In this document: positions 7,229 through 54,523 of the stretch, piece by piece
Layout of the letters: the number at the start of each line of letters is the position of its first letter
Numbering within the stretch: position 1 is the first letter of the stretch
Assembly (NCBI RefSeq): GCF_003031265.1
Contig: NZ_CP019966.1
Span: 3,038,001 to 3,102,000, forward strand
Direction: 5' to 3'
Length of the DNA: 64,000 nt
Origin: Rhodopseudomonas palustris
Lineage (GTDB): Bacteria > Pseudomonadota > Alphaproteobacteria > Rhizobiales > Xanthobacteraceae
The notes under the pieces: generated by a model
Database searches by the model: none
Seen by the model: the letters and a program-made list of their open reading frames with translations, nothing else
Told to the model about the DNA's origin: nothing
Program-made: the position numbers and the translations under genes

Positions 7229-8236
7229 ATGATTGCGCGTATTGCCAAGTGGCGCGGCCGTTGCGGCCGAATTTCCGATTGTAAGACGACGCTGACTGCA
7301 GCGATGGCGACGTTGTTCACCGCGGCGCTGGCGATGCCGGCGGCGGCCGCGGAGGAACTGCCGGGCTGGCTGTCCTATACGGCCGCCCCATCCGCAAGGG
7401 TTGCGGTACCGGCGTTGGAGCAGGGGATTGTCGCCAAGGCCGACCATGACGATGTTGATACCGAGCACATCTTCGGCTTCAGCATGGGTTCGGACATCGG
7501 GAAGAAGGGCGAGATCGAACTCGAGATCGAGAACGTCGGGCGGTTCGGCCGGCGGTTCGGCTCCTACACCGGCGTCGGCGTGCTGTCGCAGTTCAAGTTC
7601 ACGCTGACCGACAATTTCCGCGTCGCTCCCGGCGTCAGCTTCGCTTCGACCCAGATCAGCGGCGTGCCCGACATGATCGATAACCGGCGCAACGCGATCG
7701 CCGGCGCGTCGATGGAGTTCCGCTACAAGGTGCTCGATCGCGACGAGATGCCGTTCGGGCTGACGCTGCACGCCGCGCCGGGTTGGAACCGAGTCGATGA
7801 ACTCACCGGTTTCGACGCGCAGATCTACGGCACCGAGTTCGCCGCGCTGATGGACAAGGAGCTGATCCGCGGCACGCTGTTCGCGGCGTTCAACCTCTGG
7901 TACTCCGGCGGCGCCTCGCGCGATCTCGCCAATGCTTGGTCGCACGATTCCGAATTCGCCGTGCAGGGCGCGCTGTCCTATAAGCTCAATCCGACGCTGA
8001 TCCTCGGCGTCGAGGCACGCTACGTGCGGGCCTATGAGGGCCTCGGGCTCGACCGGTTCTCCGGCGATGCAGTGTATATCGGCCCGACGTTCTCGGCACA
8101 TCTGACCGAGAAGATCGGTCTGTCGGGCACCTGGAGCACGCAGGTCGCCGGCCAGGCCTGCAACGATCCGCGCCACCTCGATCTCGACGATTTCGAACGC
8201 CACCAGGCGATGCTGCGGTTCAACTACCTGTTCTGA
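7229..8236 (+). CDS. Outer-membrane beta-barrel protein, unknown function
   Basis: This 335-residue protein has a signal peptide (basic N-terminus, hydrophobic stretch, AMPAAAAEE cleavage region near residue 38). It then shows alternating aromatic/polar strands (FRYKVLDR, FAAFNLWYSGG, LILGVEARYV) and ends in NYLF, with the C-terminal Phe typical of barrels recognised by BamA. I do not recognise a specific family. A GGGGG-containing ribosome-binding site lies just before the ATG. Transcription probably starts in the 281-bp region shared with dps and ends at the hairpin at 8265. Confidence 0.7.
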   Translation: MIARIAKWRGRCGRISDCKTTLTAAMATLFTAALAMPAAAAEELPGWLSYTAAPSARVAVPALEQGIVAKADHDDVDTEHIFGFSMGSDIGKKGEIELEIENVGRFGRRFGSYTGVGVLSQFKFTLTDNFRVAPGVSFASTQISGVPDMIDNRRNAIAGASMEFRYKVLDRDEMPFGLTLHAAPGWNRVDELTGFDAQIYGTEFAALMDKELIRGTLFAAFNLWYSGGASRDLANAWSHDSEFAVQGALSYKLNPTLILGVEARYVRAYEGLGLDRFSGDAVYIGPTFSAHLTEKIGLSGTWSTQVAGQACNDPRHLDLDDFERHQAMLRFNYLF

Positions 8237-44135: not shown

Positions 44136-44927
44136 CTACCGATCGAAGCTTGCCTGCGGCCAATACAACCTGTCGGTGGTCGACCGTGCGCCAAAGATCG
44201 CCTGTCCGACCCGCACCACGGTCGCGCCCTCCTCGATCGCAACTTCGAAATCGCCGGACATCCCCATCGACAGTTGCGTCAGGTCGGGATGGATCTTCAC
44301 CATGCGATCCCGCAGATCGCGCAGCAGCCGGAAGCAGCCGCGAACACGTTCGGTGTCGGTGCTGAAGACCGCGAGCGTCATCAGGCCGCGTGGCTTGAGG
44401 CGCGGATAGTCGGACAGACGCTCGACAAACGGGACGAGATCACCGGGTGCAAGGCCGTATTTGCTTGCCTCGCCGGAGGTGTTCACCTGCACGAACACGT
44501 CGAGATCCCGCCCCTCCGCATCCAGGCGACGATTGAGCTCGTCGGCAAGCCGCAGACTGTCGAGCGCGTGGAATTCCGACGCGAACCGGACGAGATACTT
44601 CACCTTGTTAGTCTGGAGGTGGCCAATGATCGACCAGCGGATCGGCAGATCCGCAAGCATAGCGCGCTTGTCACGGGCCTCCTGCAGCTTGTTTTCACCA
44701 AACTCGGAGATGCCTGCCGCATAGGCCAGGCGAAGCACATTCGCCGGCACCGTCTTGGTGACGGGCAAAAGACGAACATCCGCAGGGCTGCGCCCGCAGC
44801 GATCGCAAGCGGCCGCGATACGCTCGCGGACCAGCATCAGATTGGCCGCAAAGACAGCGGCGGGATCCGCGCCGAAGCGTGCGATATCGTCTGGGGAAAT
44901 CTCGAGGTTGGTAGGCATCGTATCCAT
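44136..44927 (-). CDS. yggS: PLP homeostasis protein (YggS/PLPBP family)
   Basis: The 263-residue fold-type III PLP protein has the PLP Lys in LLPVTKTVP (about 57), GENKLQEA, IGHLQTNKVKYL, VQVNTSGEASKYGL and LSMGMSGDFEVAIEEGATVVRVGQAIFG, the phosphate-binding end. It has no known enzymatic activity and buffers PLP and amino-acid homeostasis. It lies downstream of pdxR on the same strand (152 bp gap) and close to benE-like and pdxY genes, which together form a vitamin B6 neighbourhood. Confidence 0.93.
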   Translation of the reverse strand: MDTMPTNLEISPDDIARFGADPAAVFAANLMLVRERIAAACDRCGRSPADVRLLPVTKTVPANVLRLAYAAGISEFGENKLQEARDKRAMLADLPIRWSIIGHLQTNKVKYLVRFASEFHALDSLRLADELNRRLDAEGRDLDVFVQVNTSGEASKYGLAPGDLVPFVERLSDYPRLKPRGLMTLAVFSTDTERVRGCFRLLRDLRDRMVKIHPDLTQLSMGMSGDFEVAIEEGATVVRVGQAIFGARSTTDRLYWPQASFDR

Positions 44928-45079
44928 CCGCCTCCGATCAATGAGGCTGGCCGGCAGTCTTCCAATGTGGGTCCGCGGTTACAACCGGTGATCAGTATTT
45001 AGCACGAGCGCGGTCTGGTTCTCCCGGCCATTTCTGGTTGCGACAGCCGGCCAATTCCGGGCAGAGCAACGCGCCGTGG

Positions 45080-46570
45080 TTAGGGTTTGATCGCCGCCCG
45101 AAGCGCTTTGGCGAGCTTCTTCACGGCGCCTTCGATTTCGAGCGGCGTGTACGCAGCAAAGCCCATCAGGAAGCCGGCTTCGCCGTCGCGGGCATGGTGC
45201 AGCCCCGACAGCCCGAGCACTTCGATCCCGACGCGGTGTGCGGCTTCGACCGCAGTTCGCTCCGGCAAGTCACACGTCAGCACACAGGGGAGTTGCAGGC
45301 CGCCGACCGGAACGCGCGGCTCGACAAAGCCGGACAGATGTTTGCGGACGAGGCGGACGAGGACGTCCAGGCGCGTCGCATAGACACCGCGCATCGTGCG
45401 GACATGCGCGCCGAAATGGCCGCCCTCCATGAACCGGGCCAGCGTCAGCTGCGCCATCGAGGCGCTGTGACCATCCAGCAGCGTGCGCGCAACCGTCATC
45501 GGCTTGACGAGTTGCGGCGGCAACACGACGTATCCGATCCGCAAACCAGGAAACAGCGATTTGGTGAAGGTGCCGATGTAAATCGTCCGGTCGTGCGGAT
45601 CGAGACCTTGCACGCACGCCGTCGGCTTGCCGGCGTAATGGAATTCGCTGTCGTAGTCGTCTTCGATGATCCACGCCTGGTGCCGGGCCGCCCATTCGAT
45701 CAGTGCGAGGCGGCGGTCCAGCGCCAATGTCGCACCGGTCGGAAACTGGTGGGACGGCGTCAGGAACACCGCCTTGGCCCGGCGCGGCTGGGCCGTGATC
45801 TGGTCGACGCTGAGACCCTGACGGTCGACCGGAATCGGAACGCACTCCACGCCTGCGGCATCGAATGCTTTGCGCGCGCCGTAATAGGCCGGATCTTCGA
45901 TGAAGATCCGGTCGCCGGGATCGAGCAGCATATTCGCGCACAGCGACAGCGCCTGCTGCGAACTGGTGAGCACCAGGACGCGATCCGCCGAGGCGCGGGC
46001 CCCGCGTTCGAGGTTGACGTAGTCGGCGATGGCGCGGCGCAGTGGCTCGCTGCCCTGCGGATCGCAGTGAAGCAGAGTGTGTGGACCCATCTCCTTGCGG
46101 ACCTGGCGCTCCAGCCGCTCCCAGAGCTGAAGTGGAAACGTCCGCGTTTCCGGCACGCCATGGACGAACGGCCGCGGCAACAGCTGCTCGCGAATGCCGC
46201 CGCTGCCGAACATCGCGGCTCCGCGCTTGCTGAGCTTCGGCGCCCGGTTGCCCAGCAGAGCGTCCCGCTGCGCCAGACGGCGGCCCGGCGTGAACTCCGT
46301 CATCTCCGCGACGAAGCTGCCGCTGCCCACGCGGCGCTCGATGAAGCCCTCGGCGTGAAGCTGGCCATAGGCGACTTCGATCGTATCGCGCGACACTCCG
46401 AGCGATTGCGCAAGGGCGCGCGACGCCGGCAGCGGCTTGCCTGCGCCCAGCGCACCATCGACGATCAGCTGGCGGATGGCACGCTGCACCCGCGCGTGCA
46501 GCGGCATCGCCGCATGAGCCGGATGGGCGACCCACGCTTTGACGGATTCGAGTTGGGAGTGCTTGAACAA
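45080..46570 (-). CDS. pdxR: MocR/PdxR-type GntR regulator with aminotransferase domain
   Basis: The 496-residue protein has an N-terminal winged helix (about 20-90: LHARVQRAIRQLIVDGALGAGKPLPASRALAQSLGVSRDTIEVAYGQLHAEGFIERRVGSGSFVA). A fold-type I aminotransferase domain carries the PLP Lys in GTFTKSLFPGLRIGYVVLP (about 325). MocR regulators of the PdxR type sense PLP and control vitamin B6 genes. The start codon appears to be TTG at 46570; the ATG at 46507 would cut into the wing. It is divergent from the transporter-pdxY pair, with a palindrome in the 106-bp gap, so it probably controls both directions. Confidence 0.88.
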   Translation of the reverse strand: MFKHSQLESVKAWVAHPAHAAMPLHARVQRAIRQLIVDGALGAGKPLPASRALAQSLGVSRDTIEVAYGQLHAEGFIERRVGSGSFVAEMTEFTPGRRLAQRDALLGNRAPKLSKRGAAMFGSGGIREQLLPRPFVHGVPETRTFPLQLWERLERQVRKEMGPHTLLHCDPQGSEPLRRAIADYVNLERGARASADRVLVLTSSQQALSLCANMLLDPGDRIFIEDPAYYGARKAFDAAGVECVPIPVDRQGLSVDQITAQPRRAKAVFLTPSHQFPTGATLALDRRLALIEWAARHQAWIIEDDYDSEFHYAGKPTACVQGLDPHDRTIYIGTFTKSLFPGLRIGYVVLPPQLVKPMTVARTLLDGHSASMAQLTLARFMEGGHFGAHVRTMRGVYATRLDVLVRLVRKHLSGFVEPRVPVGGLQLPCVLTCDLPERTAVEAAHRVGIEVLGLSGLHHARDGEAGFLMGFAAYTPLEIEGAVKKLAKALRAAIKP

Positions 46571-46604
46571 TTGGTCTGCCCTTGTGGCGGAGAATGGCCG
46601 GGCA

Positions 46605-46621
46605 CATCAGGCCACCTGATG
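46605..46621. promoter_or_regulatory. Candidate PdxR operator between pdxR and the transporter gene
   Basis: CATCAGG-CCA-CCTGATG has 7-bp perfect arms in the 106-bp divergent region, 35 bp from the pdxR start and 56 bp from the transporter start. Confidence 0.5.
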
Positions 46622-46676
46622 GCTAGATGTCAATCCATTGAGCTCGCCTCGCTTCCAGCAGAGGATTGTCGACCGC

Positions 46677-47909
46677 ATGCCGTCCCGCCCCACTCCTTCT
46701 CCGATCCGCCTCGGCGACCTCACCCACCCGGTTATCGCCGGCCTGATCTCGGTGATCGTCAACTACGGCGGCACGTTCATCCTAGTGTTTCAGGCTGCCA
46801 AGATCGCGGGCCTCAGTCCCGAGCTGACGGCATCCTGGGTCTGGTCGATTTCGATTGGCGTCGGACTGACCGGGCTGTTGCTGAGCCTGCACTATCGTGA
46901 GCCAATCATCACGGCGTGGTCGACGCCGGCGGCGGCATTTCTGGTGACCGCGCTGGCGACGACGCCCTATGCGGAGGCGATCGGCGCCTACATGATCTCG
47001 GCGGCGGCGTTCGTCCTACTCGGCCTGTCCGGCTATTTCGAAAAGGTGATCCGTCTGATTCCGCCCGGGATCGCATCGGGCCTGCTCGCCGGCATTCTGC
47101 TGCAGTTCGGGATCGGAGCCTTCGGCGGCGCCAGCGTCGATCCGTGGCTGGTCGGCTTGCTGATTGCCGCTTACGTTGCATTCAAGCGCTTCTCCGCGCG
47201 CTACGCCGTGGTCGGCATTCTGCTGCTCGGCCTCACGTTCCTGCTGACGCAAGGTCGCGTCGATCTGTCCGGCCTCAAACTCGTCTTCGCGGCCCCGGTG
47301 TTCAGCATGCCGGAGTTTTCGCTGAATGCGCTGCTGTCGGTCGCGTTGCCGCTGTTCCTAATCACGCTCACCGGTCAATACATGCCGGGGATGCTGGTGC
47401 TGCGGAACGACGGGTTCAAGACCAGCGCCAATCCGATCGTCACAGTCACCGGTCTCGGCTCGCTCATCATGGCGCCGTTCGGTTCGCACGCCTTCAACAT
47501 CGCGGCGATCACGGCTGCGATCGCCACCGGCCGGGAGGCCCACGAAGACCCGACCAAGAGATGGATTGCCGGCATCGCGGCAGGCTGTTTCTATGTGCTG
47601 GTCGGCGTGTTCGGCGTCACTCTCGCTGCAGTGTTCATGGCGTTTCCTGCCACCTTCATCACCACCCTCGCCGGTCTGGCCCTGCTCGGCACCATCGGCG
47701 GCAGCCTTGCCGGGGCGATGGCAGACCCGACCTCGCGCGAGGCGGCATTGATCACGTTCCTGGCCTCGGCCGCGAACATCAAGCTGCTCGGCATCGGCGG
47801 CGCATTCTGGGGCCTGCTGATCGGCGGACTCGCCTATGTTGTGCTCAACGGCCGCATGCCTTATCGCGCGACAGCCGATCGCTCCGCCACCGAGGCGGCT
47901 GCAAAATGA
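46677..47909 (+). CDS. BenE-family transporter; candidate vitamin B6 importer
   Basis: The 410-residue protein has about 12 helices and the BenE (benzoate:H+ symporter) family pattern: VIAGLISVIVNYGGTFILVFQAA near the N-terminus, SWVWSISIGVGLTGLLLS, ITAWSTPAAAFLV and IMAPFGSHAFNIAAITAAIATG. Family founders carry benzoate, and these organisms can use benzoate. Here, however, the stop overlaps the pyridoxal kinase start (ATGA), and a PdxR-type regulator is divergent. Import of a B6 vitamer followed by kinase trapping is the better-supported guess. I chose the ATG at 46677; GAGG lies at about 12 nt. An in-frame TTG is at 46638. Confidence 0.8.
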   Translation: MPSRPTPSPIRLGDLTHPVIAGLISVIVNYGGTFILVFQAAKIAGLSPELTASWVWSISIGVGLTGLLLSLHYREPIITAWSTPAAAFLVTALATTPYAEAIGAYMISAAAFVLLGLSGYFEKVIRLIPPGIASGLLAGILLQFGIGAFGGASVDPWLVGLLIAAYVAFKRFSARYAVVGILLLGLTFLLTQGRVDLSGLKLVFAAPVFSMPEFSLNALLSVALPLFLITLTGQYMPGMLVLRNDGFKTSANPIVTVTGLGSLIMAPFGSHAFNIAAITAAIATGREAHEDPTKRWIAGIAAGCFYVLVGVFGVTLAAVFMAFPATFITTLAGLALLGTIGGSLAGAMADPTSREAALITFLASAANIKLLGIGGAFWGLLIGGLAYVVLNGRMPYRATADRSATEAAAK

Positions 47910-48775
47910 ACCACGGAACGACGCCGATGACGACGTCCATCATCTCGATCCAGAGCCAGGTGGCACACGGCCACGTCGGCAACAGCGCCGCCGTGCTGCC
48001 GATGCAGGCGCACGGGCTGAACGTGGCGGCGGTGCCGACGACGTTGCTCTCCAATCATCCGGGCCTCGGAAGCACGCGCGGCCGGGTGTTGGACGCCGAG
48101 CTGGTCGGCGAACTGCTGCGCGGGATCGAAGAACGCGGGCTGATCGAAACCAGCCGCTACATCGTGTCCGGCTACCTCGGCTCGCGCGCCAACGGCGAGG
48201 TGGTGGCGGCCTTCGTCAAACGCGCCCGACAACTCAATCCCGCCATCACCTACATCTGTGATCCGGTGATGGGAGATTCCCATGTCGGGGTGTTCGTGCC
48301 CGATGACGTTGCCGCTTGCATCTGCAACGAGCTCGTCCCGCTCGCCGATCTTCTGACGCCCAACCAGTTCGAGGCCGGATTGATCGCCGGCCACCCGCTG
48401 GCGACATGGTCAGAGCTCAAGGTCACGGTCGACAGAATGCAGGTTTGGCGGGAAGCCCGTGTCGTCGTGACCAGTTGCAGGCTGGTGGATACGCCTGACG
48501 ACTCGCTCGAGAACATCGTGTTCGAAGGCACGAACTCCACCCGACTGCCGTCGCCGCGCCTGGAGCTGGCGGCGGCCGGCACAGGTGATCTCTACACCGG
48601 CCTTCTGATTGCGGGCCTCGCCCGCAATCTCAGCCTGGTCGATGCCGCCCGCCGCGCCGCCGCCATCGTGCTCGACGTGCTGAAACGCACCATCGCCGCT
48701 GGCGAATGCGAGATGCAGCTTGCCAGCGTCATCGATGCACTGAACCCCGCCTTTGGCGAGCCTCCTCCTCGATGA
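47906..48775 (+). CDS. pdxY: Pyridoxal kinase
   Basis: The 289-residue ribokinase-like kinase has ISIQSQVAHGHVGNSAAVLPMQ near the N-terminus, CDPVMGDSHVGVFVPDDV (about 113-130), LLTPNQFEAGLI, and the catalytic-Asp motif AAGTGDLYTGLLIAGL (about 224). It phosphorylates pyridoxal (and possibly pyridoxine) to retain it in the cell. Overlap ATGA with the transporter gene indicates coupled translation. The convergent gene ends 49 bp further on. Confidence 0.92.
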   Translation: MNHGTTPMTTSIISIQSQVAHGHVGNSAAVLPMQAHGLNVAAVPTTLLSNHPGLGSTRGRVLDAELVGELLRGIEERGLIETSRYIVSGYLGSRANGEVVAAFVKRARQLNPAITYICDPVMGDSHVGVFVPDDVAACICNELVPLADLLTPNQFEAGLIAGHPLATWSELKVTVDRMQVWREARVVVTSCRLVDTPDDSLENIVFEGTNSTRLPSPRLELAAAGTGDLYTGLLIAGLARNLSLVDAARRAAAIVLDVLKRTIAAGECEMQLASVIDALNPAFGEPPPR

Positions 48776-53887: not shown

Positions 53888-54523
53888 ATGGCCGACCATG
53901 AGCATCATCATCACCACGATCACGACCATTCCGAATTGTCGGAGACCGAGCTGCGGGTGCGCGCGCTCGAAACCATCCTCACCGAAAAGGGCTATGTCGA
54001 TCCCGCGGCACTCGATGAGTTGATCGAAACCTACGAGACCAAGGTCGGCCCGCGCAACGGCGCCCGCGTGGTCGCCAAGGCCTGGAGCGACCCGGCGTAT
54101 CGCGAGCGGCTGCTGCACGACGCCACCGCAGCGATTGCCGAGCTCGGCTACACCGGCCGCCAGGGCGAACACATCGTCGCGGTCGAGAACACGCCGGCCA
54201 CCCACAACATGGTCGTGTGCACGCTGTGCTCCTGCTACCCGTGGCCGGTGCTCGGCCTGCCGCCGGTCTGGTACAAATCGGCGCCGTATCGTTCGCGTGT
54301 GGTCAAAGAACCCCGCGCGGTACTGGCCGAATTCGGTGTGACGCTGCCGCAAGACACGGCGATCCGGGTGTGGGATTCCACTGCGGAAATACGTTACCTG
54401 GTCATTCCCATGCGTCCGGTCGGCAGCGACGATCTCGAAGAAGATCAGCTCGCCGACCTCGTCACCCGCGACAGCATGATCGGCACCGGCCTTGCTTGCC
54501 CACCCGCGGAGATCACGGAATGA
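53888..54523 (+). CDS. nthA: Nitrile hydratase alpha subunit, cobalt type
   Basis: The 211-residue alpha subunit has the metal-binding [17 protein letters not shown] at residues 110-126. Thr in CTLCSC marks the Co(III) class (Fe enzymes have Ser). C114 and C116 are expected to be oxidised to sulfinate/sulfenate in the active enzyme. The N-terminus has eight His among residues 4-14 ([11 protein letters not shown]), a natural metal-binding stretch. It converts nitriles to amides with NthB. Overlap ATGA with nthB. Confidence 0.95.

Follow-up and report, generated by a model that had tools for sequence, protein, structure and literature searches.

Transporters for vitamin B6 are unidentified in most bacteria, Escherichia coli and Bacillus subtilis included, and a 2023 survey counts three that have been characterized, two of them with a verified substrate (PMC9997740). 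In Streptococcus pyogenes, a MocR-type regulator, PdxR, controls pdxKU, a B6 salvage operon encoding a kinase and a permease (PMC11619246). Suvorova and Rodionov (2016; PMC5320631) predicted a putative pyridoxine transporter of the BenE family in PdxR regulons. Here, we describe a locus with a BenE-family transporter, a pyridoxal kinase, a MocR regulator, and the pyridoxal 5'-phosphate (PLP) homeostasis protein YggS in a 64,000-nucleotide stretch of Rhodopseudomonas palustris DNA (contig NZ_CP019966.1, positions 3,038,001 to 3,102,000), which we call the window. In our reading, it is probably a PLP-controlled B6 salvage locus, and this BenE subfamily would carry a B6 vitamer.

The PdxR regulons of PMC5320631 resemble the window in combining BenE with a PdxR-type MocR, pdxK, COG325 (the YggS family), and GlyA. 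Their operators are also alike: among MocR operators, that paper finds the three-box '-> -> <-' arrangement seen here most often, and TGG is among the common cores. It was the only paper that our literature search found for 'BenE family' and pyridoxine. Because the prediction was already made there, the idea is not new at the level of the family. However, that work is a regulon prediction, and the orthogroup boundary, the control set, the genus co-occurrence, the mobile copy, and the fold come from the present analysis. What is new is a distinct orthogroup with PLP-gene linkage, its predicted operators, its co-occurrence in the genus, its predicted UraA fold, and its copies on an integrative conjugative element (ICE).

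The S. pyogenes operon shares with the window a MocR-type PdxR over kinase and permease genes. However, PdxU belongs to another transporter family (COG4720/PF07155; PMC9997740) than the window BenE (PF03594), and S. pyogenes is predicted to rely on salvage, whereas the window organism also has PdxJ and PdxH. The window BenE is in neither family of the B6 transporters with verified substrate, PdxU2/HmpT (PF07155) and P5PA (PF13531) (PMC9997740). Within the BenE family, BenE-I of Pseudomonas putida, compared with the window by description only, lies in an operon with genes for an aldolase and a 4-hydroxy-tetrahydrodipicolinate synthase and is tied to fluoride tolerance (PMC13104614).

The four-gene locus and its predicted operators

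The locus comprises the following features.

44136..44927, minus strand: yggS, COG0325 PLP-homeostasis protein (TIGR00044, 179 bits against a cut-off of 106)
45009..45055, minus strand: predicted second operator for MocR (degenerate), roughly 80 bp ahead of yggS; in relatives the equivalent site precedes glyA-yggS
45080..46570, minus strand: mocR/pdxR, regulator with GntR (PF00392) and Aminotran_1_2 (PF00155) domains, divergent from benE
46570..46616, plus strand: predicted main MocR operator, with boxes ATTGGTC, AATGG, and inverted CCA whose starts are 23 and 19 bp apart; it reaches the mocR start codon
46677..47909, plus strand: benE-family transporter, a predicted B6-vitamer transporter (PF03594, TIGR00843; own orthogroup, predicted UraA fold)
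47906..48775, plus strand: pyridoxal kinase (pdxY/pdxK; TIGR00687, 211 bits against a cut-off of 144.5), overlapping benE

The BenE assignment is clear by curated cut-offs, with 429 bits against 27 for PF03594 and 393 against 203.4 for TIGR00843, and PF03594 is the sole Pfam match at an E value of 0.001 or below. The ATG at 46677 is the best start, although the frame is open from a TTG farther upstream, at 46638, as well. The predicted structure has the fold of the uracil:H+ symporter UraA (PDB 8oo1 and 5xls; NCS2/SLC26 fold), to which the window BenE is 16% identical. PDB sequence searches with BenE found no relative, and the few matches were at chance level. A GQY/SQN motif considered as the NCS2 signature of transmembrane helix (TM) 10 was ruled out, as it lies in TM8 by helix count on the model.

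At 47906-47909, the sequence ATGA holds both the stop codon of benE and the start codon of the kinase gene. The kinase matches pyridoxal kinases of solved structure and is the only TIGR00687 match above the cut-off in its genome, where two others score 35 and 20 bits. It scores 250 with the PRK05756 'PdxY' equivalog, below the cut-off of 292. Therefore, 'pyridoxal kinase' is a safer name for it than PdxY. In a curated family scan, MocR exceeded the cut-off of the PdxR model NF052282 (402 against 320 bits). The rhizopine-MocR model scored higher, at 422 bits, yet under its own cut-off of 650, and MocR was likewise under the cut-offs of the GabR, YczR, EhuR, and PtsJ models. In an alignment of MocR with 7pq9, a homologue of solved structure, the PLP-lysine region, FTKSLFPGLRIGY, matches up with FSKSL, and we take these regions to hold the PLP-binding residue. 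The yggS gene behind mocR is 85 to 87% identical to yggS of three genus relatives (L093, L094, and L256). The overlap, the divergent PdxR-type regulator with its lysine motif, and the position of yggS had all been reported in a preliminary description of the window, and each was confirmed. PdxH and PdxJ are encoded elsewhere in the genome. Therefore, the organism probably also makes B6 and PLP de novo.

The operator was defined on the mocR-benE intergenic regions of the window and 70 named loci, 6 of which yielded no site in a first scan. A spacing of (23,19) with A(A/T)TGGTC-like, AATGG-like, and inverted CCATT-like boxes was best in 57 of the 71 regions. It was best in 62 of 71 by a second scoring, and in letter shuffles the commonest spacing reached at most 5. 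This arrangement puts direct and inverted TGG boxes at helix-turn spacing, as in operators of the PdxR subfamily. A whole-genome scan allowing up to two mismatches, with a pattern designed in knowledge of the first site, returned two sites, 46570-46616 (no mismatch) and 45009-45055 (two mismatches). We also built a weight matrix from the benE-mocR sites alone. In 15 of 16 loci, several of them close relatives, the site on the glyA/yggS strand behind mocR topped everything else outside the benE-mocR site. The score was above 0 in 13 loci and weak in L116 (-2.6) and L121 (-9.6, where the best elsewhere is -11.9); the exception is L150, whose yggS is about 3 kb away. The second operator of the window ranks third in the 64 kb, and the second-ranked site overlaps the first operator. 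With predicted operators before both units, benE-pdxY and (glyA-)yggS appear to be under one common regulator.

Distribution of the BenE subfamily and its neighbors

A scan of named genomes matched at least 596 stretches, 571 of which encode a BenE relative. We kept the best 80 of the 571, whose BenE proteins are 80 to 89% identical to that of the window; 12 of them have shortened flanks. Their records are titled mostly as alpha-, beta-, and gammaproteobacteria, with one Cephaloticoccus and one Bacillus that is probably mislabeled. The latter, L121, is titled Bacillus subtilis and has a locus resembling that of Pseudochrobactrum L116, so contamination or mislabeling is probable. Within 6 kb of benE, we found MocR in 77 of the 80 loci, yggS in 37, glyA in 30, pdxK/Y in 15, and PdxH in none. 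MocR is divergent and upstream of benE in 76 loci and within 600 bp in 72. The constant core of these loci is thus MocR-BenE. At least one of pdxK/Y, yggS, and glyA lies within 6 kb in 48 of the 80 loci (44 of 76 without four near copies). The arrangement recurs across loci and is therefore not due to chance. The BenE-pdxY adjacency of the preliminary description recurs as well, but the kinase directly follows benE (0 to 48 bp) in only 10 loci; yggS directly follows (18 to 186 bp) in 26. The open reading frames (ORFs) near benE in nine loci that have no PLP gene downstream, and the ORF that separates benE from glyA in L105, belong to no common family; one of them, in L136, encodes a class-III aminotransferase.

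Other BenE subfamilies served as the control. Among 60 such loci, each with flanks of about 6 kb, there was no pdxK/Y and no yggS, and the one glyA was a weak match (31 to 32% identity) about 4 kb away. A MocR-like match above 55 bits occurred in 7 of the 60, about 1.3 to 4 kb away. The linkage to B6/PLP genes is therefore specific to this BenE subfamily, as far as sampled. MocR-family genes lie about 1.3 to 2.3 kb off in five loci of another BenE branch (L182, L183, L185, L186, and L193; 44 to 47% identity).

The subfamily is sharply bounded. Among 189 distinct BenE proteins, identity to the window BenE falls from 97 to about 75%, then to 53% in L077, and then to 49% or less. In a FastTree phylogeny of 151 rows, all rows of about 75% identity and above fall into a single fully supported branch. 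The outlier between this orthogroup and the rest, L077 (7880-9115, genus genome G009), is accompanied by a distantly related MocR (24%) and, about 3 kb downstream, by a glyA. We ruled out a separate clade of pdxY-linked BenE, which the preliminary description had raised. On a quick tree, the pdxK/Y label requires 13 changes for 20 positive rows, compared with 24 for 43 for yggS and 25 for 38 for glyA.

On the same tree, some copies are labeled as benA-linked. The benA matches that underlie these labels exceed the cut-off in L095 and L187 and fall below it in L198, L202, L203, and L221. Among 60 BenE-bearing genomes, which do not include that of the window, benA matched at an E value of 1e-100 or below in 19 and above the cut-off in 5. 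The benA-linked copies of L095, L187, and L198 sit in the branch nearest to the orthogroup, and three others in a distant one. On this tree, the window BenE falls outside the benA-linked branches, yet closest to one of them. L095 and L187, where benA lies within 7 kb, share the Pfam family and are on the nearest branch. However, they are 46 to 49% identical to the window BenE, their fetched flanks have no pdxK/Y, yggS, or glyA, and they carry F at the position of window Y235 and S at that of N29.

Within Rhodopseudomonas, 6 of 16 genomes (G000 to G015) have the orthogroup benE and the pyridoxal kinase side by side, 8 have neither, and 2 have only one (Fisher P = 0.009, n = 16, uncorrected for kinship). 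Three genus genomes have both the mnh genes and the sequence beginning at about 49.9 kb; the two lie about 2.9 kb apart in G013, 2.2 kb in G009, and 5.1 kb in G011, and no module gene is found in between. The benE of G009 sits on another contig. Apparently, the module has entered or left this chromosomal site. In six relatives (L082, L091 to L094, and L256), glyA lies between mocR and yggS. Judged by this comparison, the window has lost its second glyA from the region 44928-45079, and the predicted operator that precedes glyA in relatives now stands before yggS. A search of 14 genomes, 11 of them of the genus, found two glyA copies in the six genus genomes with mocR-glyA-yggS and one in the window's own genome, G001, G002, and G012; the second glyA of G009 lies beside its other, 53% BenE. 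In L256 (G015), a benE remnant is present at 7792-7932, and mocR, glyA, yggS, and the kinase are retained.

Four records titled Extensimonas, Gallionellaceae, Luteimonas, and Solimonas (L105 to L108) carry near-identical mocR-benE-glyA. Identity to L105 is 99.9% for L106 over its 6 kb, and 97.8% for L107 and 98.9% for L108 over 15 kb. In L105, two proteins exceed their cut-offs, a MobH relaxase and a conjugation protein (TIGR03755), and an integrase-like protein stays under its own; L106 is a short contig of a metagenome-assembled genome, too short to show most such genes. A tRNA-Gly marks the break in identity in L105 and L108. Near-identical copies in distant records, the conjugation and relaxase genes, and the break at a tRNA gene indicate that mocR-benE-glyA is cargo of an ICE.

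Ten ORFs flanking the locus were scanned. Five form an Mrp/Mnh antiporter operon, and others encode a DUF3471 protein, a UvrD-type helicase, and a YdhR-like protein. A collagen-like protein (PF01391; 49875-50375, minus strand), here in a bacterial chromosome, and a nitrile hydratase alpha chain (53888-54520, plus strand) are also among them. As the preliminary description had it for the adjacent genes, none of the ten encodes a benzoate-degradation enzyme; the rest of the genome was not searched for benA.

Possible substrates and roles of the transporter

Our proposal is built on directly seen gene content, co-conservation, operator-like sites, the orthogroup, and the predicted fold. Characterized PdxRs activate pdxST in the absence of PLP (PMC5320631). 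By analogy, MocR would sense the cellular PLP level and bind the three-box operator between mocR and benE. Low PLP would lead MocR to turn on benE-pdxY and, via the second operator, yggS; relatives carry a second glyA ahead of this last gene. BenE may then act as a proton-coupled carrier of the UraA fold that takes up an unphosphorylated B6 vitamer. The kinase would phosphorylate the imported vitamer, thereby retaining it in the cell, and YggS would buffer PLP. Since PdxJ and PdxH are present, the locus would serve salvage and not be a lifeline.

Several observations weigh against this reading. The same PdxJ and PdxH mean that B6 import is not required. No pdxK/Y is present within 6 kb in 65 of the 80 loci, and none of the three PLP genes is near in 32. 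In the genus, G009 has benE and no kinase, and G015 keeps the kinase with the benE remnant only. The second operator of the window is degenerate (weight-matrix score, -5.8), and a reversed-pattern control also gave one genome match of its quality. Residues specific to the orthogroup are enriched only slightly in four core helices chosen by us (11 of 31 versus 20%; uncorrected P = 0.035). The branch nearest to the orthogroup is the Pseudomonas-type, benA-linked one (L095, L187, and L198; support 91, unstarred). Finally, glyA is near benE nearly as often as yggS (30 versus 37 loci), and the common theme may therefore be a substrate of GlyA and not B6. Thus, the B6 interpretation of the preliminary description gains from the position of the protein outside the benA-linked branches, the linkage of the orthogroup to PLP genes, the predicted MocR operators, and the genus co-occurrence, but loses the pdxY-linked clade and has MocR-BenE, not BenE-kinase, as its constant core.

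The glyA counts lead to an alternative in which the transporter carries an amino acid, an amine, or another small substrate on which a PLP enzyme acts, for instance the second GlyA. The kinase and YggS would then supply and buffer PLP, and MocR would sense PLP together with the substrate, as GabR does. The extra glyA copy in the six other genus genomes with mocR-glyA-yggS fits this alternative. So does PMC5320631, which names a BenE-GlyA link separately and places BenE and GlyA also in further MocR regulons that have no assigned function. However, the window genome lost this glyA and retains benE-pdxY-mocR-yggS, no glyA is present within 6 kb in 50 of the 80 loci, YggS and a pyridoxal kinase indicate B6 itself, and the window MocR passes the cut-off of the PdxR model and falls short of the GabR one. 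We consider this alternative unlikely. The transporter could also be an exporter that rids the cell of surplus pyridoxal or of a PLP antagonist that is toxic, with the kinase, YggS, and the extra GlyA restoring PLP enzymes. YggS and a spare GlyA are compatible with PLP stress, and the ICE-borne copies lie near the integrase-like gene. Accessory cargo of such elements, for example resistance genes, is often located close to the integrase gene. For a BenE of P. putida, an effect on the tolerance of fluoride is reported, but experiments by the same authors did not bear out that it transports this ion (PMC13104614). However, BenE is described there as an aromatic acid-H+ symporter, an ATGA-overlapping kinase suits trapping after entry, and activation by characterized PdxRs when PLP is absent (PMC5320631) also speaks against export, which we regard as quite unlikely.

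An ordinary benzoate or aromatic-acid transporter with its neighbors there by chance appears very improbable. The protein is a BenE-family member next to a benA-linked branch, and its close homologues, from R. palustris, are named benzoate transporters by their sources; among the 120 homologues listed, many of them nameless, the names shown refer to benzoate or BenE, apart from one 'hypothetical protein'. Against this stand the PLP-gene linkage across alpha-, beta-, and gammaproteobacteria, the common operator, the separate orthogroup, and the ten scanned flanking ORFs, none of which encodes a benzoate-degradation enzyme.

In a broader, rather unlikely extension of the B6 salvage reading, the MocR-BenE core, together with the kinase, YggS, and a spare serine hydroxymethyltransferase, would be a modular, partly mobile PLP-resilience cassette with a UraA-fold B6-vitamer transporter, carried even on ICEs. 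Such a cassette would let the host, once its PLP is drained or poisoned, restore the PLP supply and substitute for a PLP enzyme that is sensitive. As for the B6 salvage reading itself, the sharply bounded orthogroup, the fixed operator, and the kinase partner make a candidate that can be tested of what was a regulon-based guess in 2016. If this reading is correct, many database entries named 'benzoate transporter' would be misnamed.

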